A stretch of 64,000 nt of DNA from a bacterium. GTDB lineage: Bacteria > AUK180. The stretch is taken from NCBI GenBank assembly GCA_023144005.1, contig JAGLGN010000016.1, positions 1-64,000 of the forward strand, given 5' to 3'. Positions 4,359 to 23,217 of this stretch are shown in pieces (positions within the stretch are counted from its first letter, which is position 1; each line of letters starts with the position of its first letter). The notes below the pieces were generated by a model. That model made no database searches. It was not told the origin of the DNA and saw only the letters and a list, made by a program, of their open reading frames with translations. The translations under genes and the position numbers were made by a program.

Positions 4359-5783
4359 TTAACCCTTAATGTCCTTTTTGCTGATATTGTGCTTTTTCAT
4401 TCTCAATTCAAGTATCCTTCTATTGGTCCCAAGGAATTCTGAGATCTCCTGATTGGACATTTCGGGATGCAGGGCCAAGGCGCGCAGAATGATCTCCTTC
4501 TCGGCATCCTCCTGCATGAAATTCAAATGCTCAAAGCCGTTCTCTATGGGTAAAAGGCAGCGGACCTTGACCATATTCTCACCAACGCCCTCTTCGCTTT
4601 CGACAGGTGTATGAGAGGTCAAGGAGATCTGAAGTGTCTCATCTCCAAGATAATCTCCTTTTTCCATGATAACACCTTTTTCAATGATGTTCTCCAACTC
4701 CCGCACATTTCCCGGATACTCATAATTCATCAATTTTGAAAGCGCTTCCGGAGAAATGCCTTTTATCTTCTTTGAATTCTTCAGAGAGAATTTCTTCATG
4801 AAAAAACTTGAAAGCAGCGGGATATCCTCTTTACGCTGTTTTAACGGAGGAAGATTTATCCGGATAACATTAAGCCGGTAATAGAGATCCTCTCTGAAGC
4901 GCTTCTCAGCGACCTCTTCCTCTATATCCTTATTTGTACTGGCAATGAATCTGACATCGATCCTAATGCTTTTGACCCCGCCGACGCGTCTTATCTCTCT
5001 GTTCTGTACCGCATTCAGTAGTTTCGCCTGCAGTTTCGGCGACATCTCTGATATCTCGTCCAGAAAAACGGTCCCGCCGTTGGCGACCTCAAAAAGGCCG
5101 GGCTTCTCTGTCATCGCTCCCGTGAAAGCGCCTCGTTCATATCCGAAGAGCTCCGCTTCCAGAAGATCTTCAGGAACCGCAGCACAATTAATGACGATAA
5201 AGGGGCCGCTCTTTCTCTTTGAAACATAATGAATGGTCCTTGCCACAAGATCCTTGCCAGTGCCGGATTGCCCCGTCAGCAGTATATTTGCCGCCGATCC
5301 TGATATCTCTGAGATGATATCAAAGATCTCTTTCATCTTTCTGTTCTTGCCTACAACACCGGGAAAAGCCCTCTCTATCTCACTGGAAAGGTATGACTTT
5401 TCATTCCTGACGATCAAGTACATATCAATCGCCTCCTTCACCATCTTGTGTAGTATCTCAAAATCAAAGGGCTTGGAAATAAAATCGTATGCCCCTACCT
5501 TAACCGCGTTAACCGCGCTTTCTACCGAACCGTAAGCCGTAATAAGTATCACGGGAACATCAAAATCGATCTTCTTGACCTCTTTGAGAACTTCAATCCC
5601 TGATATATCGGGCATTTTAAGGTCTGTAAGCACACAATGAGGTTTGAACTTACTGAATTCTTTCAAACCGCTCTTGCCATTGTATGCGGTCTTCACCTGA
5701 TATTTCTTCTTCTCGAAGTTTATCTTCATTACATTGACAAGATTTTCTTCATCATCTATTATCAGAACTCTATACATCATCAC
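4359..5783 (-). CDS. sigma54-dependent NtrC-family response regulator (canonical)
   Basis: Receiver with IIDDEE, TDLKMP Asp, SKP Lys; AAA+ with GQSGTGKD, GAFTGA, LDEI; Fis-type C-terminus. Confidence 0.95.
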   Translation of the reverse strand: MMMYRVLIIDDEENLVNVMKINFEKKKYQVKTAYNGKSGLKEFSKFKPHCVLTDLKMPDISGIEVLKEVKKIDFDVPVILITAYGSVESAVNAVKVGAYDFISKPFDFEILHKMVKEAIDMYLIVRNEKSYLSSEIERAFPGVVGKNRKMKEIFDIISEISGSAANILLTGQSGTGKDLVARTIHYVSKRKSGPFIVINCAAVPEDLLEAELFGYERGAFTGAMTEKPGLFEVANGGTVFLDEISEMSPKLQAKLLNAVQNREIRRVGGVKSIRIDVRFIASTNKDIEEEVAEKRFREDLYYRLNVIRINLPPLKQRKEDIPLLSSFFMKKFSLKNSKKIKGISPEALSKLMNYEYPGNVRELENIIEKGVIMEKGDYLGDETLQISLTSHTPVESEEGVGENMVKVRCLLPIENGFEHLNFMQEDAEKEIILRALALHPEMSNQEISEFLGTNRRILELRMKKHNISKKDIKG

Positions 5784-7144
5784 CTCAGTAGTATTCTAAA
5801 GACCGTTCTGTCCGCGGAACTTTCAACTTCAATACGCCCGCCGTGATTATCAATGATCTTTTTCACGATGGAAAGCCCCAGGCCTACGCCCTTTGTATCA
5901 CTTGTAACAAACGGTTCCCATATCCTTTCTAACTCGACTTCAGGTATCATCGGGCCATTGTTCTCGATCTCTATTATCAAGATCCTCTGGCGATTCTTGG
6001 TCACCTTGATATCTATATATGGTCCGGATGAATTGAATCGCGTCAAGGCCGTGCTGGCATTCTCGCAGATATTGAATATCACGTTCTTCAAGAGCATATC
6101 ATCTACCTCAAAAAACAATGTTGTCGCGTTTATATTTACCTTGAGATCGATATCATCCGAAATTATGTTCAGGATATCGTCCTTCAGGTTCAAAAAGAAA
6201 TCCTTTATGTCTATTCGGTTCTTATTGATCTCGAAAGGCCGGGAGAAGTTAAGCATCTTCTCTACCAGATTGGATAAACGCTCGGTTTCTTTTATAATAT
6301 AGTCAAGAAGTTTAATATTTGACTCATCCTTCTCATCGTCCTTAATGGTAGAAGCGGAGGCCTTGATCGTTCCCAGGGGGTTTCTTAATTCATGCGCGAC
6401 CATTGAGCTGAATTTACCCATGGTGGACAATTCACTGTTTCTCTCGATCTCCTTTCTCAGAACATTTTCAGTAAGAATATCCTTGAAGAAAGCATATGTC
6501 AGGCCATGGTATTTCCTGACATAAAGATCATGCTCACGACCGTTAAAGATAACGCTCTCAAAATGCTCCGTAACTCCCTCAGACAAGGAATTCAATTGCG
6601 CCTGTATACTTTTTCCGGTAAGCGCGATCTTCTCGAGCTTCTCAAGAGAGCGTATGCCCATTCCCGCGGATGAAAAAAGCGGTATTCCACTCTGAGAAAA
6701 TATCGCGATGGGCCCATCAAGAAATCCTGTCATACCAGTAAGTTCCGGCGTAGATCTCAATGCCGCCAGATTGAGCAGAAATAGAAATATACCGGCAAGA
6801 AGCCCTATCAATAATGAAGTGCCTGAATTTCCCTTTTTCCGGTAATGTACGCGCAAATACTTAAAATCATTTGCCGCCATCTCCTTCATTTCAAAACAAA
6901 GATCCCCGGTGACCTTACCTATGTTAACGGGCGCTCCGCTGTCAAGGATGTCTATCACCTCAACACCTTCTATCATCAGAAAATCTATAAATGTTTCACT
7001 TGTCAGATCGCCTTTAGTATGCGCATCGTAAACAAGAGCTTTTTCTTTGGATAATTGAATATTATTATTGATCCCGCCAAGGATCAGAGACGCGGAAAAT
7101 ACCAGTACCGCTAATATCAATGGGAGTACAACCTTCTTTACCAT
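5780..7144 (-). CDS. sensor histidine kinase (motifs intact)
   Basis: H-box AHELRNP, N-box NICENA, G2 GVGLGLSIVKKI; 4-bp overlap with the response regulator. Confidence 0.93.
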   Translation of the reverse strand: MVKKVVLPLILAVLVFSASLILGGINNNIQLSKEKALVYDAHTKGDLTSETFIDFLMIEGVEVIDILDSGAPVNIGKVTGDLCFEMKEMAANDFKYLRVHYRKKGNSGTSLLIGLLAGIFLFLLNLAALRSTPELTGMTGFLDGPIAIFSQSGIPLFSSAGMGIRSLEKLEKIALTGKSIQAQLNSLSEGVTEHFESVIFNGREHDLYVRKYHGLTYAFFKDILTENVLRKEIERNSELSTMGKFSSMVAHELRNPLGTIKASASTIKDDEKDESNIKLLDYIIKETERLSNLVEKMLNFSRPFEINKNRIDIKDFFLNLKDDILNIISDDIDLKVNINATTLFFEVDDMLLKNVIFNICENASTALTRFNSSGPYIDIKVTKNRQRILIIEIENNGPMIPEVELERIWEPFVTSDTKGVGLGLSIVKKIIDNHGGRIEVESSADRTVFRILLR

Positions 7145-14596: not shown

Positions 14597-14660
14597 ATAA
14601 TCACACGGAAACATTCTTAACATCTGCAATAATATATTGATTGTCCCTGAAAAAGAGAAT

Positions 14661-14711
14661 GGGAAGGTGCGTGGTTTGAAAGGAGGGGGGGGGGTATGAG
14701 TGCACCTTCCC
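14661..14711. terminator. 10-bp perfect stem (GGGAAGGTGC/GCACCTTCCC) enclosing a G10 tract
   Basis: gggaaggtgc 14661-14670, gcaccttccc 14702-14711; downstream of the minus-strand activator gene. Confidence 0.5.
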
Positions 14712-14811
14712 AAGTTTGTTATTGTGTGTGTGAAAGAACACATTATATACAGCAACATCCGTGCCAATATCTTTTCTCCCAACACATCTAGAATAACGCC
14801 ATTTTGCTTTC

Positions 14812-16299
14812 TCAGGAATGTGGACTTATATTCCACTTTGTGGAATATTTTTCCATTAACTCGTATTTCTTTACCAATTTATAGAAATATGACCTGTCGA
14901 TACCGGAGATCTTGATGATGGTCTTGATATCCCATCCGTACTTCCTTATGAGGTTCTCCAGATATTCTCTGATAATTTCATCCTTCCAGTACTTAACTAC
15001 CGTCTTCATCGGTTGTTCAATATTTATTGTTATATTTGATATCCCGCCGACATTTTCTATATCTTCGATATCCTTGGAAAAAAGGATGTCTTTCGGCCCT
15101 AATGTTTTCTCAGAAGATATGATGATCGCTTTTTCGATGATATGCTCCAATTCTCTTATATTCCCGGGAAAGGAATATCTGAGTATTTTATGCTCTGCAT
15201 GTTCGGAAAGGCCCTTTACTTCTTTACCGTGTATTCTATTGAAACGGTCGATAAAATAGTATGCGAGTGGAAGAATATCCTCCTTCCTTTCCTTCAGTGG
15301 AGGAAGATGTATGTGAAACACATTTAATCGGAAATACAGGTCTTTTCTAAATCTTTTTTCCTTGACTAAGCGGGGTAACTCCTGATTTGTTGCTGCGATA
15401 AGGCGAAAGTCTATCGGTATCGTTGTAGTGCTCCCCAGACGCCGAATACTTCGCTCTTCCAGGACACGAAGCAATTTGGCCTGAAGATCATAGGGCAGAT
15501 CCCCTATTTCATCCAGAAATAGTGTCCCTTCGCTGGAGAGCTCGAAAAGGCCTCTTTTAGAGGTGTAAGCTCCGGAGAATGCACCCTTTTCATAGCCGAA
15601 TAATTCACTCTCAAGAAGCTCATGCGGTATAGAAGAACAGTTGATCGCCATGAAATGGCCATCGCGCCGAGGAGAAAGTTCGTGTATCGCTTGAGAGATC
15701 ACATCCTTTCCTGTACCGGTCTCCCCTGTTATCAATAGACTTGTGGAAGTTTTCGCCACACTCTCCATCTCCTTGAATATTCGCTGCATCTCTTTTGAGG
15801 TACCGATAATATTTGCTGATATAGCAGGAGTTGCCGATGACGCAGGCGTCTTGGAATCCTTCTTAACGCCGTTGTCTCTCTGCTTAATGTACTTCTCAAA
15901 AATAATATTAAATCTCACAAGGTTAACGGGTTTATTGATTATATCAAATGCACCGGCTTTGATGAGTGACAGCAAGAAATTCCTCTCCTTTGAGTCGGTG
16001 ATTACAAGAGTTGGCGCATTGAAGAGAGTGGAATATTTTTCCACATATGCTTTTTCCTCCTTGCTGTTGATCTCTGCGATAAGAAGATCGTACTTCTTTT
16101 TTTTGAGATGCTTCACCGCTTCCTCATGGCCGGCTACCTGTCCGGTGTTTATGCCTTCGCCCAATAGATATTGATATACAATGCTCATCTGCGGGTTTGA
16201 TGTATCGATAATAAGGACATTTATTGATCTTCTAGCCGATTCGATATATAACTCCCTTTGTTTCGGGGAAGACTTGATAGTTGAGATCATGCATTTCAA
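14812..16299 (-). CDS. sigma54 activator with degenerate receiver (phospho-Asp replaced by Glu)
   Basis: VLIIDTSN (second acidic residue lost), LLIAEIN in place of LLTDL, TDS and NKP retained; AAA+ GETGTGKD, GAFSGA, LDEIGDLP; C-terminal HTH. Confidence 0.9.
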   Translation of the reverse strand: MKCMISTIKSSPKQRELYIESARRSINVLIIDTSNPQMSIVYQYLLGEGINTGQVAGHEEAVKHLKKKKYDLLIAEINSKEEKAYVEKYSTLFNAPTLVITDSKERNFLLSLIKAGAFDIINKPVNLVRFNIIFEKYIKQRDNGVKKDSKTPASSATPAISANIIGTSKEMQRIFKEMESVAKTSTSLLITGETGTGKDVISQAIHELSPRRDGHFMAINCSSIPHELLESELFGYEKGAFSGAYTSKRGLFELSSEGTLFLDEIGDLPYDLQAKLLRVLEERSIRRLGSTTTIPIDFRLIAATNQELPRLVKEKRFRKDLYFRLNVFHIHLPPLKERKEDILPLAYYFIDRFNRIHGKEVKGLSEHAEHKILRYSFPGNIRELEHIIEKAIIISSEKTLGPKDILFSKDIEDIENVGGISNITINIEQPMKTVVKYWKDEIIREYLENLIRKYGWDIKTIIKISGIDRSYFYKLVKKYELMEKYSTKWNISPHS

Positions 16300-17569
16300 A
16301 TACCTTTCTTGTAAAAAAGATCCTCAGCGCTGATGAGGGATTATTGAGGCTTTCCAGGGGATGCTCCTGCATCTCAAGTATCCTTTCCCGGCATTTTTTG
16401 CCGCAGGCGCTCTCTATCTCAATATGTTTTTCATTGATTCGAATGATAAATTCCTTATTCTCCGAGGCGAGATTCAATGTATCCTTCAAAAGCAGCTCAA
16501 ATGCCTTTTTGAATAATTGTATATCGTATTTGAAATGCGACCATTTCGAAGTGTAATCCTTCTTTACGCGGATCCCTTTTTCGATTATAACTCCTTTTTG
16601 CTCAAGCAGTATATAATCAAATAAGGTCGGCAGGTCGTAATTAGAGCGGACAAGAGTTCCCGAATCCTTTTCCATGCGGGAAAGCCCGTCGATCAGATCG
16701 CAATTTTCCAGTATCTTCGCGACCTCGTCCTTCAAAGGCTGAAACGCCATACTCATATCCGTCTTGCCATCCTTCAAGAGCTGTACATATCCGTCAATAA
16801 CGGAAATAGAATCCTTCAAGGTGCGAGTAAAAAGATTGCCGAAGCACTCCTTCTGCGAGTACATCTCCATAAGTTTCTTATCAAGCTCGCTTATTCTCTC
16901 TTCCTCTCTACCCAGGATAAACAAGGTGGCGACGAAATACAAAAACGGTTCGATCATCCCCCTGTCAGTGATCTGAGATTCCGGTATAAGGAATGCGGCT
17001 ACGAAAGGGTCTTCGAGTATTTTAAAGCAGAGGTGATCCACACCGCCGATATTTATCTTTCCGGATCTGCTGAGCTGCTCGAGGTCAAGGATCTTATTCG
17101 GCGCTATATCGGTTTTGCCGTTGATATCAGCGGTTATGACCACATTGTCAATAAGAGCGATAAAGGAATTTATGGAGAAGCGCTTATTCAGCCGTACAAT
17201 AATATTTTCAGCGGTCCTTCTCTCAAATGTATCGGAGGTTTCAACACCCGAATGTTTTTTGCCTATATTGAATCCGTAAAAGACCTTATCCATAATGGAG
17301 GAAAGAGATTGGTCCAAGTCATAATAGGAAAGTGTAACGAATGTATATTTCTGATCTTCGGGTTTGTAAAATTGGATCGAGGTGTTACCTAATTCCGGTA
17401 TTATCCTCTGCATATGGGTGAAGTGTTCCCCTGTGGCATCGAATTCCTTCAGCAGGGCCTTCAGAAATCCCTTTAACTCACTGAAATATTCATTTGTGAA
17501 TGGTAGATCTCCTGAACTTAAGACCTTCTTGACATTGCCTTTTTCTGCTAAAAAAGAAAAATTTAACAC
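16232..17569 (-). CDS. putative pseudo-histidine kinase
   Basis: DHp-like FGNLFTRTLKDSISVIDGYVQLL without the His; degenerate ATPase-like C-terminus; adjacent to activator. Confidence 0.65.
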   Translation of the reverse strand: MLNFSFLAEKGNVKKVLSSGDLPFTNEYFSELKGFLKALLKEFDATGEHFTHMQRIIPELGNTSIQFYKPEDQKYTFVTLSYYDLDQSLSSIMDKVFYGFNIGKKHSGVETSDTFERRTAENIIVRLNKRFSINSFIALIDNVVITADINGKTDIAPNKILDLEQLSRSGKINIGGVDHLCFKILEDPFVAAFLIPESQITDRGMIEPFLYFVATLFILGREEERISELDKKLMEMYSQKECFGNLFTRTLKDSISVIDGYVQLLKDGKTDMSMAFQPLKDEVAKILENCDLIDGLSRMEKDSGTLVRSNYDLPTLFDYILLEQKGVIIEKGIRVKKDYTSKWSHFKYDIQLFKKAFELLLKDTLNLASENKEFIIRINEKHIEIESACGKKCRERILEMQEHPLESLNNPSSALRIFFTRKVFEMHDLNYQVFPETKGVIYRIG

Positions 17570-17589: not shown

Positions 17590-18045
17590 TTATATAAGCC
17601 AGAGAGAAAGTATCTCCAGATTCTTATTCGTTTGGCGAAGCCTCATTGAGAGGGTCTGGATAACGAGTTCGAGAAATTTATTGGCAAGATCAGGTTTTTC
17701 CTTTCTCAACTTGTCATAACCCTTTCTTTCCATAATGAGAAGCTTCGAGTCCTCAAAACTCCTTACAGTCGCGGATCTGGGGTAATTATCAAAGAGGGAC
17801 ATCTCACCAAAGAGTTCGCCCTTCTCAAGGATCTTCAATGTCTGATCCTCTCCCATCACCTCTCGCTCAACCCTGACCTTTCCGTCGACCAGCAGGAAGA
17901 GTTCCTGTCCTTCCGATTGTTCATTGACGATTATCTCATTAACTTTGAACAGTTTTTCTTCAAAATACTCTATAAACCCTTTAAGGTCGGTATCGTTCCA
18001 CTGTCCGAAACCTTCAAATTTCTTAAGATCAGAATATTCCTTCAT
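17590..18045 (-). CDS. single-domain cyclic nucleotide-binding (cNMP) protein
   Basis: ELFLLVDGKVRVEREVMG...ILEKGELFGEMSLFDNYPRSATVRSFEDSKLLIM; no HTH. Confidence 0.9.
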   Translation of the reverse strand: MKEYSDLKKFEGFGQWNDTDLKGFIEYFEEKLFKVNEIIVNEQSEGQELFLLVDGKVRVEREVMGEDQTLKILEKGELFGEMSLFDNYPRSATVRSFEDSKLLIMERKGYDKLRKEKPDLANKFLELVIQTLSMRLRQTNKNLEILSLWLI

Positions 18046-19318
18046 TCCCTCTCTCCTCTTTTAAATTAAGCCTGGAATTAATAACCTCCAGGTGCAGTTC
18101 AACTACCTGCTTGGATGATTCGTGATCAGATACCTCTACGAACCATTCAAATAGCAGTTTTGCCTTAGTCAGTATGCCGGCGTTCTCTAAGATCATACCG
18201 ACATTGAACAGGGCTTCGATATACATCGGGTCAACCGATTTTATTTTCTCCAATATTGGAAGTACTTTTTCAAATTTACCTCTGTTTATATACAAGAAAA
18301 TGATCGTCAGAAGCAATGTGATATTATCAGGGAACTTCTCAATACTTTTTAAAACGGTGCTTTCCGCCTCAGAAAATTCATATGAAAAGAAGTAAGCGTA
18401 GGAAAGTAGAGAAAGTATTTTAGGTGACTCATTTCCCCTTGTCATCTCGTCCTTGATGAATGTTATGAGTTTCTCCAAGTTTCCCCTTCTTAACATGAAT
18501 TTCCCTATCTCCAATACAATGCTGGGGCTCTTTGGGTGACGCGCCAATTCCTCTTCAAGGTCGATCTCATATTCAGGAGGCAGGATCTTTCCGATACCCG
18601 CATGAAGAAAACTGTTTCCGATATTGTAGGATTTCAGCTTCTCAACCACGATATTTGACTCCTCGATCTCACCCAGATTAAAAAGAAGGACACCATAATT
18701 GGAAAGCAGAGTAATATCATCCGGGAATTCCTTCAGACCCTCTTTGAAATACTTCTTTGCCAGAACCTGATTTCCGAGCTCATTATAAATAAGCCCCATT
18801 GAATTATAAGTAAGCGGGTCATTCTGCATGACCAGGGATTTCTTGAACGACTGGAGAGCGGCTTTGTAATCCTTTAATTCCCATAAAAGAAAGCCGAGCT
18901 TATTATTCGACTGAGCATCCTTCGGAGTGCCGATCTCACTATTGAAGAAATCTATCGCTCTCTTGTAATCCCCTATCAATTCAAATGCGTCGATGATCTT
19001 ATTGACATATGACTTATCTTTCAAATTGTAATAACAATACAGATCAAGGCCCAATACCTTTTCAATATCGCCTGTAAGCGCCCATTCCTTCTCCAGAGCC
19101 ACAAGTTTATCTTTCGGGTAATCGAACTCATAAAGTTCATTGTTCTGAAGATAATAGACCGCAAGATAGGTAAATATTACATCGGGTTCATCTCCCAAAT
19201 GCCGGAACTCCTCTTCCCCGATGAGCGCCAATGCTTGCTTATACTTACCTTTTTGCACAAGGGAGAAAAATTGACCCCCTGCGAATTTGCCTTTTTTCTT
19301 ACCGCCGAATAATATCAT
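18029..19318 (-). CDS. TPR-repeat protein
   Basis: Multiple TPR-like helices (YNSMGLIYNELGNQVLAKKYFKEGLKEFPDD). Confidence 0.85.
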   Translation of the reverse strand: MILFGGKKKGKFAGGQFFSLVQKGKYKQALALIGEEEFRHLGDEPDVIFTYLAVYYLQNNELYEFDYPKDKLVALEKEWALTGDIEKVLGLDLYCYYNLKDKSYVNKIIDAFELIGDYKRAIDFFNSEIGTPKDAQSNNKLGFLLWELKDYKAALQSFKKSLVMQNDPLTYNSMGLIYNELGNQVLAKKYFKEGLKEFPDDITLLSNYGVLLFNLGEIEESNIVVEKLKSYNIGNSFLHAGIGKILPPEYEIDLEEELARHPKSPSIVLEIGKFMLRRGNLEKLITFIKDEMTRGNESPKILSLLSYAYFFSYEFSEAESTVLKSIEKFPDNITLLLTIIFLYINRGKFEKVLPILEKIKSVDPMYIEALFNVGMILENAGILTKAKLLFEWFVEVSDHESSKQVVELHLEVINSRLNLKEERGNEGIF

Positions 19319-20754
19319 TAATTACCCATTCCCAGAAATTGTATCTCCGCAAAATATGCGATATACGGGTCAGCGTCATTCATGGCCTTCTCAAGTATGG
19401 GTTTTGCGATGTCACGCGGATACTTGATCACTTCAATAAGGACCTTCTCTTTCAATTCCATCGCGTACTCCTCGCTTCCGAAGACACTTTCCATATAAGG
19501 GAGGAGGGAGTCGCATTGTATCTCCGAACCTGCTTCCAGCGCGGCGAAGATAACCGAGAAAATAGGAAGAGTGACCAATTTGGGAAGGCTGTCGCAAACC
19601 TGAATGAATTTCCACTCCTTCGAATAGTTCAATGCCAGTTCCACTGCCTTCAGGTCCTTGGATCCCAGGAGTTTAATGATATTCGCCTTGTATGCGGTCT
19701 CACCGTATGAATAAAGGATACCGTAAGCCATTACCCAGATATGATCGTTCTTATAGACCTTAACAAGTCTTTTCATTGTCTTTGAGATCGTCGCATCTTT
19801 GCCAACATCTTTGAATACCTTCAGTATCTCCGCGATGAAAATGGGATGGTCAAAGTAGAATCCGTCAAGAACATCCGCGCAAAGTGCCTCTATGCCCCTA
19901 TTGTAGCCACAGAGCTTCATCAAATGGCCCGCTTCCGCCCGTACCCTGATGTCTACTTCCGAATAGGTGAAAATTGGATTGAGCACCCTCATCGCCCAAG
20001 TAGTTTTAAAACGCCCCTTGCCTATAGAACGGATCGTGCGAAGCGCCGAAAGGAGATAGTCGGAATCGTCATCCGGTTTGATATAATCAATTATGGCATC
20101 TGCAAGTGAGGGGTCTCCGATCTCCTGAAGTGATTGTACGGCAGCTATGCGCAGCAGGTAATTATCGCTTTTCAAAAGTTCGATCAATTTACCTGATACC
20201 TGGCTGGCCTTCAGTTTTCCCAGTGCCTTGGCGCTGGCGATCATAAGATTATCATTTTTTGTGTCAAAATTCTTTGCCAGATCAACAATAACAGATTTAT
20301 CGCCGATAGAACCCAGTACCTCAATAACAGAGATCTTTGTGAAATCATCGCCTGTTTTCAAGAGGCTCTTCATTGCCGGAAGAGCGGGTTTACCTATACT
20401 GATAAGCAATTCCAGCGCTCCCAACTTGATATAATCATTATCGCTATCCAAAAAGAGCGCGAGATCAGGTATGATTATTTCCCCATAGGTCTTAAGTGTT
20501 TCAAAGGCCGCAATGCGGATCTTCGCGTTCTCCGAACCGAGGAGTTCTATGATCTGCGGTATCGGCTCGGCGAAGAATTTCCCGCTATTGTTCATTTCCG
20601 TGGTACTCTTTAAGGCATTCATCACCTTTCCGAAGTACTGCTTGGGATTGGCATTAAGATCTCTTAATATCTGCTGATTCGCGGAATCCTGATTACATGC
20701 GTTGAACATCAGCAGGAAAGCAACGAAGGTTAACATTAACGCTCTTTTTTTCAT
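19318..20754 (-). CDS. HEAT-repeat lipoprotein
   Basis: Lipobox MFNAC; repeated KIRIAAFETLKTYG / LLRIAAVQSLQEIGDPS units. Confidence 0.88.
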   Translation of the reverse strand: MKKRALMLTFVAFLLMFNACNQDSANQQILRDLNANPKQYFGKVMNALKSTTEMNNSGKFFAEPIPQIIELLGSENAKIRIAAFETLKTYGEIIIPDLALFLDSDNDYIKLGALELLISIGKPALPAMKSLLKTGDDFTKISVIEVLGSIGDKSVIVDLAKNFDTKNDNLMIASAKALGKLKASQVSGKLIELLKSDNYLLRIAAVQSLQEIGDPSLADAIIDYIKPDDDSDYLLSALRTIRSIGKGRFKTTWAMRVLNPIFTYSEVDIRVRAEAGHLMKLCGYNRGIEALCADVLDGFYFDHPIFIAEILKVFKDVGKDATISKTMKRLVKVYKNDHIWVMAYGILYSYGETAYKANIIKLLGSKDLKAVELALNYSKEWKFIQVCDSLPKLVTLPIFSVIFAALEAGSEIQCDSLLPYMESVFGSEEYAMELKEKVLIEVIKYPRDIAKPILEKAMNDADPYIAYFAEIQFLGMGN

Positions 20755-21159
20755 CTATTTCTCCTCTTCACCAACAATTATATTGTGAATGTACCACAGG
20801 TCTTTTATGTCTCTTATGACGACCTTGATCTTTTCGGTCTTCCCGGTACCTTTCTCTCTTAAAAAAAGGTGCACGACATTGATATTGCCCAGTGTATCAT
20901 CCAAAATAAAATCAGTTTTAACTATCTTTACATATCCCGAAGAAAGCAGCTTCATAATACTCTTTATCTCCGCATCCGTAGGATTATAATGCTTTTCATC
21001 AAGCATCATGCGGAATTCCTTCAAATTTCTAATGGTAGAAACACTTTTCAGGGTTTCGATCGTAGAATTAGGGGTTCTGAGATCCAAGTCCACATAGCAG
21101 GACAGGAACAGAAATACCGTTAATATCAGGAGTGAAATGCGGAGTCCTTTCATCGTCAT
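20755..21159 (-). CDS. small lipoprotein
   Basis: Lipobox LFLSC. Confidence 0.7.
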   Translation of the reverse strand: MTMKGLRISLLILTVFLFLSCYVDLDLRTPNSTIETLKSVSTIRNLKEFRMMLDEKHYNPTDAEIKSIMKLLSSGYVKIVKTDFILDDTLGNINVVHLFLREKGTGKTEKIKVVIRDIKDLWYIHNIIVGEEEK

Positions 21160-21186
21160 TTATTTTACTCTATTTCGAAAAGAAGG

Positions 21187-21849
21187 TCAAGAAATCTTTT
21201 CCTTTTCCTGGAATTTCATGACATCTTCCATTTTACCCATCACCATCAGAATATCGTTCTCTTTGATAACGGTATCCGGAGAAGGTATAAGATTAACATC
21301 CCCATTGCTTTTAACTCCTATAACATTGAGATTATAGACATTTCTGATTTTGAGCTCGATTATCGATTTTCCAGTAAAACTCTTCGGTGAACGGAATTCA
21401 ATATAGTAAACATCACCGGAAAATTCAAAGGAATCGAGAATATTAGGCCCAACAAGAGAATTGGCGAGTCGTTTACCACCCTCAACCTCGGGAAGTACTA
21501 CCCTGTCGGCGCCGATCTTCATAAGGACCTTTTCCTGCAGGCCGGTCACAGCCTTCGCCACGATCTTCTCAATACCCATTTCCTTCAATAAAACCGTGAT
21601 CATTACGGAAGATTCCAGGTCTGTGCCGATAGAAACAACGGCAACATCGTATTTGCTGACACCGATTGCCTTTAATGCGTTTTCATCGGTAGCGTCTATA
21701 GCCACACTGCTTGTGGCGAATGATTGAGCGAATTGCGCCTTTTCCGGGTCCTTGTCTATCGCAAGGACCTCCATATGCAATTCATTTAAACGCTTACATA
21801 CAGAGAGACCGAACTCCCCCATCCCTACAATGATGTACTTCTGAGCCAT
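21187..21849 (-). CDS. trkA: TrkA/KtrA potassium uptake regulatory subunit
   Basis: YIIVGMGEFGLSVCKRL Rossmann start, RCK-type C-terminus. Confidence 0.93.
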   Translation of the reverse strand: MAQKYIIVGMGEFGLSVCKRLNELHMEVLAIDKDPEKAQFAQSFATSSVAIDATDENALKAIGVSKYDVAVVSIGTDLESSVMITVLLKEMGIEKIVAKAVTGLQEKVLMKIGADRVVLPEVEGGKRLANSLVGPNILDSFEFSGDVYYIEFRSPKSFTGKSIIELKIRNVYNLNVIGVKSNGDVNLIPSPDTVIKENDILMVMGKMEDVMKFQEKEKIS

Positions 21850-21858
21850 TACTGCCTC

Positions 21859-23217
21859 CTAACCGACCATTACCTGTTCCTCGGGGTATTCGATCTGTAC
21901 GGGCCTGTCGCTTTTCTTAATACTCAAGGCGATGAGCGTAGGGCCTAACCTGCCAAGGAACATCGTTATAATTATAATCATTTTTCCTATATTATTCAAA
22001 TACGGGGTCACCCCTGTGGAGAGGCCGACCGTGCCGAAAGCGGATACCAGCTCAAAGAAAAGTCTTTGAGAAACATCCTGTCCGGCGGATGATGGAACTT
22101 GCATATTTGTCATAAGCAATGCCATAAACGAAATAAACAGCCAGAATATGGCTACCAGAAATATAGTGATCGTTCTATAAACAATAATTTGCGGGATCGC
22201 CTTATTGTGCGCGACAACCCTGTCTTTCTGACGGAAGAACGAACCGAGTATCAGCAGAAGGAGGAAGAAAGTGGTAACCTTGATACCTCCTGCCGTGGAA
22301 CCCGGGCCTGCACCGATGAACATGAATAATTCATTCAACATCAATGTAGCGGGACGCGCGCCTCCGAGATCGATCACATTGAACCCCGCTGTCCTTGCGG
22401 TAGCGGAGTGGAAAAATGAAACCAATATCTTCTCGAAAAAGCCCATCGAACTGAGTGTATTGTCCTTCTCAAGAAAGAACATCGCTATCGTTCCCCCCGC
22501 CAAAAGGACAACGGTGCCGAGAAGCATCAGTTTTGTCTGAACTGAAAATTTCTTCATTCTTATATTGAGGCCTTTGTTGAAGATATTCAACTCAAAAAGT
22601 TCGTAAAGAATAAGAAAGCCCAAACCACCGAATATAAATAAGGTGGAAGAGGTCAAGAGCACAAGAGGCGAATCCGAAAACGCGGAAAAAGAATCTACAA
22701 AAGTAGAGAATCCCGCATTACAGAAGGAGGACACCGAGTGAAATATTGAATAAAACAGTCCTTTCCCCCATCCATACAAGGGAATAAATTTCAAGCAGAA
22801 GAAAAATGCGCCGAATGCCTCAAAGATCACTGTGTAAGTTATAACCTTCACGGAAAGGTTGACAATATCAAAGAAGTCGCCCTTGGGAGCCACGAGCTCT
22901 CTGATCACAAGCTGATGCCGTAAGGAGAGATCCCTCTTGATAAGCTGATAGAAAAAAGTTGAGATCGTCATTATACCCAAACCGCCAAGTTGAATCGAGA
23001 TAAGAAGGATCAGCTGACCGAAAAAGGTAAAGTCCTGGCCGGTATTCTTCACGATGAGCCCGGTCACACAAACAGCTGAGGTCTCTGTGAACAGGGCGTC
23101 AATAAAGGATATGCCATTCTTTGTGGAGAATGGCAACATTAATAATAATGTTCCCGATAGTATGACTAAAAGAAAGATGAAAACTATCAGAACGGGAGGA
23201 GAAAATTTCTTTCTCAT
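21859..23217 (-). CDS. trkH: TrkH/KtrB potassium transporter
   Basis: 452 aa membrane protein; ETSAVCVTGL, GAGPGSTAGGIKVTTF, GTVGLSTG. Confidence 0.95.
   Translation of the reverse strand: MRKKFSPPVLIVFIFLLVILSGTLLLMLPFSTKNGISFIDALFTETSAVCVTGLIVKNTGQDFTFFGQLILLISIQLGGLGIMTISTFFYQLIKRDLSLRHQLVIRELVAPKGDFFDIVNLSVKVITYTVIFEAFGAFFFCLKFIPLYGWGKGLFYSIFHSVSSFCNAGFSTFVDSFSAFSDSPLVLLTSSTLFIFGGLGFLILYELFELNIFNKGLNIRMKKFSVQTKLMLLGTVVLLAGGTIAMFFLEKDNTLSSMGFFEKILVSFFHSATARTAGFNVIDLGGARPATLMLNELFMFIGAGPGSTAGGIKVTTFFLLLLILGSFFRQKDRVVAHNKAIPQIIVYRTITIFLVAIFWLFISFMALLMTNMQVPSSAGQDVSQRLFFELVSAFGTVGLSTGVTPYLNNIGKMIIIITMFLGRLGPTLIALSIKKSDRPVQIEYPEEQVMVG

Follow-up and report, generated by a model that had tools for sequence, protein, structure and literature searches.

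How does a kinase and response regulator pair go on working once both partners have lost the residues that pass on the phosphate? The question is raised by two overlapping genes in the stretch of DNA analysed here (hereafter the window: positions 1 to 64,000 of contig JAGLGN010000016.1, assembly GCA_023144005.1), which encode a kinase-like protein and a sigma54-dependent activator (Table 1). How pseudo-receivers are switched has been described as an open question (PMC12632262). At this locus the genes for a pseudo-receiver and its own pseudokinase lie side by side, an intact pair occurs in a related genus, and the presumed output is small and self-contained, consisting of one promoter and one RNA that could be rebuilt in a laboratory strain. 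We propose that the pair probably remains a regulator of protein synthesis, acting through a different route, and that it apparently switches on a small RNA that had previously gone unnoticed.

The window's own genome (G000) was compared with a second species of the same genus (G001), with representatives of three other genera of the same family (G002, G003 and G004), and with two genomes of the sister family (G005 and G006), giving seven genomes of the class. The module itself was counted in only five genomes from four genera, so that covariation counts are small (n = 5); most of these assemblies are fragmented MAGs. When GTDB species genomes were scanned with the C-terminus of the activator, only these relatives and remote matches came up.

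Table 1. Coordinates of the features of the locus within the window
Feature	Position	Strand	Remark
Predicted small RNA, ~90 nt	14650..14740	-	start placed from the -12 element; 5' tail, hairpin and U-rich terminator tail
Loop ACCCCCCCCCCUCCUUUC (anti-Shine-Dalgarno) of RNA hairpin 14712-14660	14678-14688	-	
Perfect sigma54 -24/-12 promoter, TGGCACG-N4-TTGCT (TGGCACGGATGTTGCT)	14751..14766	-	pattern match
UAS-like dyad TTCCACAAAGTGGAA	14831..14845	.	core of 35-bp imperfect palindrome 14821-14855
NtrC-family sigma54 activator, 495 aa	14812..16299	-	AAA+ domain, C-terminal HTH-like region
GAFSGA loop of activator	15568-15585	-	
Pseudo-receiver, residues 28-135	15895..16218	-	
Codon of Glu76 at phospho-Asp position	16072-16074	-	
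Pseudo-histidine kinase, 445 aa	16232..17569	-	N-terminal region and degenerate DHp and CA domains
DHp segment, residues 236-300	16670..16864	-	without any His
Codon of Arg249 at phospho-His position	16823-16825	-	
Single-domain cyclic-nucleotide-binding (cNMP) protein	17590..18045	-	next gene upstream
Upstream cluster	18029..23217	-	TPR protein, HEAT-repeat lipoprotein, small lipoprotein, TrkA-like and TrkH-like K+ uptake

Catalytic residues of the kinase and the receiver

Both open reading frames were found where the original prediction had placed them. The activator, which starts at TTG 16299 or ATG 16290 and overlaps the kinase gene, matched the Pfam domains Sigma54_activat (E = 3.6e-69) and Response_reg (E = 1.8e-8, weak but significant). 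It has the features of a sigma54 enhancer-binding protein, namely AAA+ Walker motifs, a loop of the GAFTGA type and a C-terminus weakly matched as HTH. The loop reads GAFSGA instead of GAFTGA, one of the variants expected to keep activity (PMC4641369).

Alignment of the receiver with the canonical paralogue placed Glu76 (LLIAEINS) at the phospho-Asp and retained the switch Thr (VITD) and the Lys (NKP), just as had been read by eye. In addition, the second acidic position, which is the Mg-binding Asp, is occupied by Thr33 (IIDTSN), and the pair reads Asp-Thr. The five receiver positions thus read D-T, E, T and K in both species of the genus; at all five, every other sigma54 activator whose receiver could be read in the seven genomes is canonical (32/32).

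The kinase alone gave zero matches in a Pfam search. Meanwhile, a profile built from it and its homologues matched solved histidine kinases (SrrB 6paj, E = 8e-7), and the protein is homologous to the kinase of G002 (E = 4e-15). In the profile alignment SHELR falls on FTRTLK of the window protein, putting Arg249 at the phospho-His, as predicted. The expected loss of the N-box Asn and of the glycine-rich boxes was also borne out: Asp takes the place of the Asn, G1 reads SACGKKC and G2 reads SALRIF, so both boxes are missing. A scan of residues 180-344 revealed no His, hence no alternative His in the DHp domain, and with no Asp at the receiver acceptor either, the claim that both acceptor sites are gone stands.

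Structure prediction with AlphaFold2, one of the checks suggested originally, returned a DHp-CA fold for the kinase core together with 12 homologues (pLDDT 84.5), and Foldseek matched this model to histidine kinases, among them DivL (4q20) and RetS (6dk7). This supports the fold and does not prove it, because true kinases were in the alignment. A model of the entire kinase from 3 sequences reached a pLDDT of 46 and was discarded.

Collectively, the pair retains the DHp-CA fold and ancestry of a canonical two-component system, and lacks the phospho-His and the full receiver set of acidic pair, Asp, Thr and Lys. It fits a pseudo-histidine kinase and pseudo-receiver, with recognisable domains, missing phosphotransfer residues and constrained genes. 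By way of background, 0.9% of HisKA domains lack the His and 2.0% of receivers lack the Asp (PMC12632262). Judged by these residues, His-Asp phosphotransfer within the window pair is almost certainly impossible.

Homologous pairs and selective constraint

The two losses occur together again in G001, where the syntenic pair is 98-99% identical to that of the window and degenerate in the same way. The syntenic pair of G002 has the His and the receiver Asp: its kinase carries HELRNS, the N-box Asn and a GIG motif, and its receiver has Asp, Thr and Lys, with Ala-Glu as the acidic pair. Against G002, the kinase is the most diverged of the set at 22-25% identity; the activator reaches 52% and the cNMP protein 68%. 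In G004, where the activator was read across two contig ends (C36 and C24) taken as abutting, its gene apparently follows directly after the cNMP gene, the receiver is canonical and no kinase gene appears to adjoin. The activator of G003 is relocated, without a kinase beside it, and its receiver has kept the Asp and lost the acidic pair, the Thr and the Lys. The different residues lost suggest that the receiver degenerated by at least two routes. As far as gene order tells, the module can in some genera do without a kinase-like partner (G003 and apparently G004).

The genes of the sister family provide a further point of comparison. TPR and cNMP genes are present in G005 and G006, and no kinase-activator pair lies beside them in these two genomes; the cluster upstream of the pair may supply its signal. 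Trees gave key-node support of 30-65% (TPR/cNMP) and 49-88% (activator), and the order of events is settled by neither.

Comparison of the two species of the genus revealed purifying selection on both proteins. The kinase differs by 10 nonsynonymous and 17 synonymous changes (dN/dS 0.15), against a neutral expectation of 21 nonsynonymous among the 27 (p = 3e-6). Its DHp-CA part (residues 231-445) shows 3 and 9 (dN/dS 0.08, p = 8e-5). In the receiver the counts are 0 and 4 (p = 0.002), and the whole activator has a dN/dS of 0.04. Low dN/dS in both degenerate domains indicates that the kinase and the activator are functional proteins. By comparison of the two sequences, the degenerate state is older than the split of the two species. 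The original prediction would have been undermined by intact homologues combined with recent decay in this genome alone. Intact homologues do exist, in G002; recent decay is rejected, because the degenerate state is common to two species and under constraint. Synonymous divergence from G001 is uneven, at about 0.06 in the kinase and receiver and 0.25 in the rest of the activator, perhaps as a result of overlap, expression or recombination.

The promoter and predicted small RNA behind the activator gene

The earlier reading missed what adjoins the pair, a conserved RNA and a sigma54 promoter that are likely to be its output. The promoter lies 45 bp past the activator stop codon. A sigma54 promoter follows this activator in 5/5 genomes, including G003 with its relocated gene, and all five encode RpoN and Hfq. 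Perfect sigma54 sites are rare (2, 2, 2, 1 and 1 per genome; 0 in a reversed control), and 4 of these 8 lie directly downstream of this activator; the site in G004 is near-consensus (TGGCACAATTCTTGAT). The dyad falls within the 3'-terminal part of the activator ORF. It has the consensus TTCMAC-N3-RTKGAA and promoter spacings of 79, 79, 78, 78 and 79 bp (G000 to G004), a conservation that is partly protein constraint, as the site lies in coding sequence. Among the other dyad matches examined, which were part of all matches, none was near a sigma54-like site.

Other sigma54-related sites were noted in these genomes. The window's genome has its only other perfect site on contig C35 (237269-237284), just upstream of a predicted secreted protein or lipoprotein gene, and this site is kept in G001. 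The canonical activator and kinase pair of the window (4359-7144) adjoins a sugar transferase gene, and in G004 a perfect sigma54 promoter follows the relative of this activator and stands ahead of the transferase gene.

The predicted RNA is structured and measures 90-180 nt across the family, with one or two hairpin loops bearing CCCCUCCUU (5/5 genomes); in G002, G003 and G004 it is longer, with an extra hairpin carrying the same loop before the terminator hairpin. The loop core CCUCCUU is identical to the 3' tail of 16S rRNA as read in G004 (GGATCACCTCCTTA), and the loops are therefore anti-Shine-Dalgarno sequences. Fold z-scores range from -4.0 to -7.1, and the terminator stem is 100% paired, with two compensatory pairs. 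Rfam gave no family match, only RAGATH-23 far below the cut-off in G002. A covariance model scored 65-85 bits at the locus in all five genomes, and its matches elsewhere in 386 genomes did not exceed 30 bits; these weaker matches are probably ordinary terminators, a judgement made without inspecting each one. From these searches, the RNA family is apparently undescribed and belongs to an uncultured lineage.

Searching for targets with the exact 11-nt loop complement GAAAGGAGGGG returned essentially the RNA itself and one in-gene site. By duplex energy, the Shine-Dalgarno sequences of trkA and of the gene for the cNMP protein rank among the first in several genomes, a ranking that mostly reflects strong Shine-Dalgarno sequences, was noticed after the fact and serves as a lead only. 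Between the small RNA and ligA, the segment 14325-14596 has 31-nt inverted arms, 87% complementary and 210 nt apart; it is missing from the same place in G001 and looks like a MITE-like insertion. The stretch 14253-14322 matches G001 at another place.

Proposed control of the switch and comparison with known systems

We favour, with a probability of roughly 0.6, a module of the CbrB-CrcZ type, an activator with its small RNA, in which the phosphorelay has been replaced in the window's genus by a switch based on contact or expression. The loss of catalytic residues, the selective constraint and the conservation of dyad, promoter and RNA are read from the sequences themselves, and from them we infer three steps: activation of the promoter by the activator, production of an RNA that blocks translation, and contact between pseudokinase and activator. 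The activator would bind the dyad that its own gene carries at the 3' end and would drive the single -24/-12 promoter just downstream. Through its loop, the resulting short RNA would pair with the Shine-Dalgarno sequences of its target mRNAs and so reduce translation. At least some members of the family would take their input from ordinary His-Asp phosphotransfer, given that G002 has a kinase and a receiver that seem intact. Both partners have, in the window's genus, lost the phosphotransfer residues and been kept; most likely, the pseudokinase would contact the activator directly, as NifL does NifA, and activator activity would then depend on contact and protein level, not on phosphate.

A broader reading is more tentative, at a little short of even odds. 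In it, with phosphotransfer lost in both partners, a contact-controlled sigma54 switch serves a single new small RNA with loops that mimic the 16S anti-Shine-Dalgarno tail, and related genera, with an intact pair, an absent kinase or a differently degenerate receiver, represent other stages, forming a natural series of phosphosignalling replacement.

It is unlikely, we think, that the switch is simply constitutive, with Glu76 mimicking aspartyl phosphate, the RNA level tracking activator expression and the pseudokinase a bystander or scaffold. A Glu placed at the phosphorylation site of NtrC does activate, bypassing phosphorylation (Klose 1993, as cited in PMC4973870), CbrB has the same architecture and barely depends on phosphorylation (PMC6296734), and the window receiver has kept its Thr and Lys. 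However, its Mg-binding Asp is gone, the G003 orthologue degenerated without gaining a Glu and kept its Asp, and the kinase is under purifying selection, which is unexpected for a bystander. Of the original prediction, the loss of His-Asp phosphotransfer is supported, and the "Glu-locked" state is not established, since the Mg-binding Asp is lost as well and G003 degenerated with its Asp in place. Of the inputs it suggested, protein contact is plausible, with NifL-NifA as a precedent (PMC9866876), and ligand sensing in the pseudokinase N-terminal region would be another candidate. VpsR and FleQ are sigma54 activators with atypical receivers, and this precedent makes phosphorylation-independent control by a small ligand, as by c-di-GMP in those proteins, or through the neighbouring cyclic-nucleotide-binding protein, conceivable; we regard it as doubtful. 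The receiver of G002 weakly matches the Pfam VpsR domain (E = 2.6e-4), but the protein that matched is a homologue of the window activator, and the receiver fold alone may account for the match; no ligand-binding motif was identified.

It seems very improbable that the hairpin does no more than terminate the activator operon and that the promoter-like site is there by chance. A hairpin with a U-tract does resemble an intrinsic terminator, yet four genomes have one of the rare perfect sites at this place, where the fifth has a near-consensus one, against no perfect site in the reversed control, and the loop motif is conserved, as is the extra upstream hairpin with the same loop in three genera. 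Least probable of all, and only barely credible, is a loss in progress, with relaxed selection on the phosphorelay and both proteins drifting towards disappearance. The intact homologues of G002, the absence of a kinase gene next to the activator in G003 and G004 and the strong divergence of the kinase (22-25% identity to G002) would suit such a course, but the frames are open and under strong constraint in both species (10 nonsynonymous changes where 21 are expected), and the degenerate state predates the species split.

The preferred reading, a contact or expression switch, has parallels among known sigma54 systems. In Pseudomonas, CbrA is a membrane transporter-kinase and CrcZ antagonises Crc/Hfq through CA motifs. 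CbrAB-CrcZ resembles the window's module in that an NtrC-type activator, little dependent on phosphorylation, has a separate sigma54-dependent RNA directly downstream (PMC6296734, PMC8871633), the layout of sigma54 promoter and structured non-coding RNA found here in 5/5 genomes. Unlike that system, the window RNA carries anti-Shine-Dalgarno loops and the window receiver lacks the Asp. LuxO of Vibrio is controlled by phosphorylation. The gene of this sigma54 activator also adjoins a sigma54-dependent small RNA gene, qrr1, but there qrr is opposite in orientation to luxO (PMC10162802).

In NifL-NifA, a kinase-like protein without phosphotransfer contacts a sigma54 activator (PMC9866876); here, only gene adjacency and overlap are seen. 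The C-terminus of Klebsiella NifL resembles GHKL domains only slightly and lacks ATP/ADP-binding features (PMC9866876). Unlike the window pair, NifA has a GAF domain in place of a receiver and NifL has PAS domains. Degenerate receivers or repurposed kinases are likewise kept in use in VpsR, FleQ, DivL and RetS; to our knowledge, none of them occurs as a kinase and receiver pair whose genes adjoin and have degenerated together.

The RNA has counterparts of its own. The csRNAs of Streptococcus, which belong to the CiaR regulon, are also controlled by a response regulator and carry anti-Shine-Dalgarno sequences in unpaired regions (PMC3091779), although there the sequence is flanked by two stem-loops and CiaR does not belong to the sigma54 activators. 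The alpha-r14/NfeR1 (cuckoo) RNAs of alphaproteobacteria share with the window's family the combination of variable stems and an invariant anti-Shine-Dalgarno motif left unpaired in each hairpin (PMC10746234). The motif is CCUCCUCCC in alpha-r14 and CCCCUCCUU here, and NfeR1 is activated by LsrB and repressed by NtrC.
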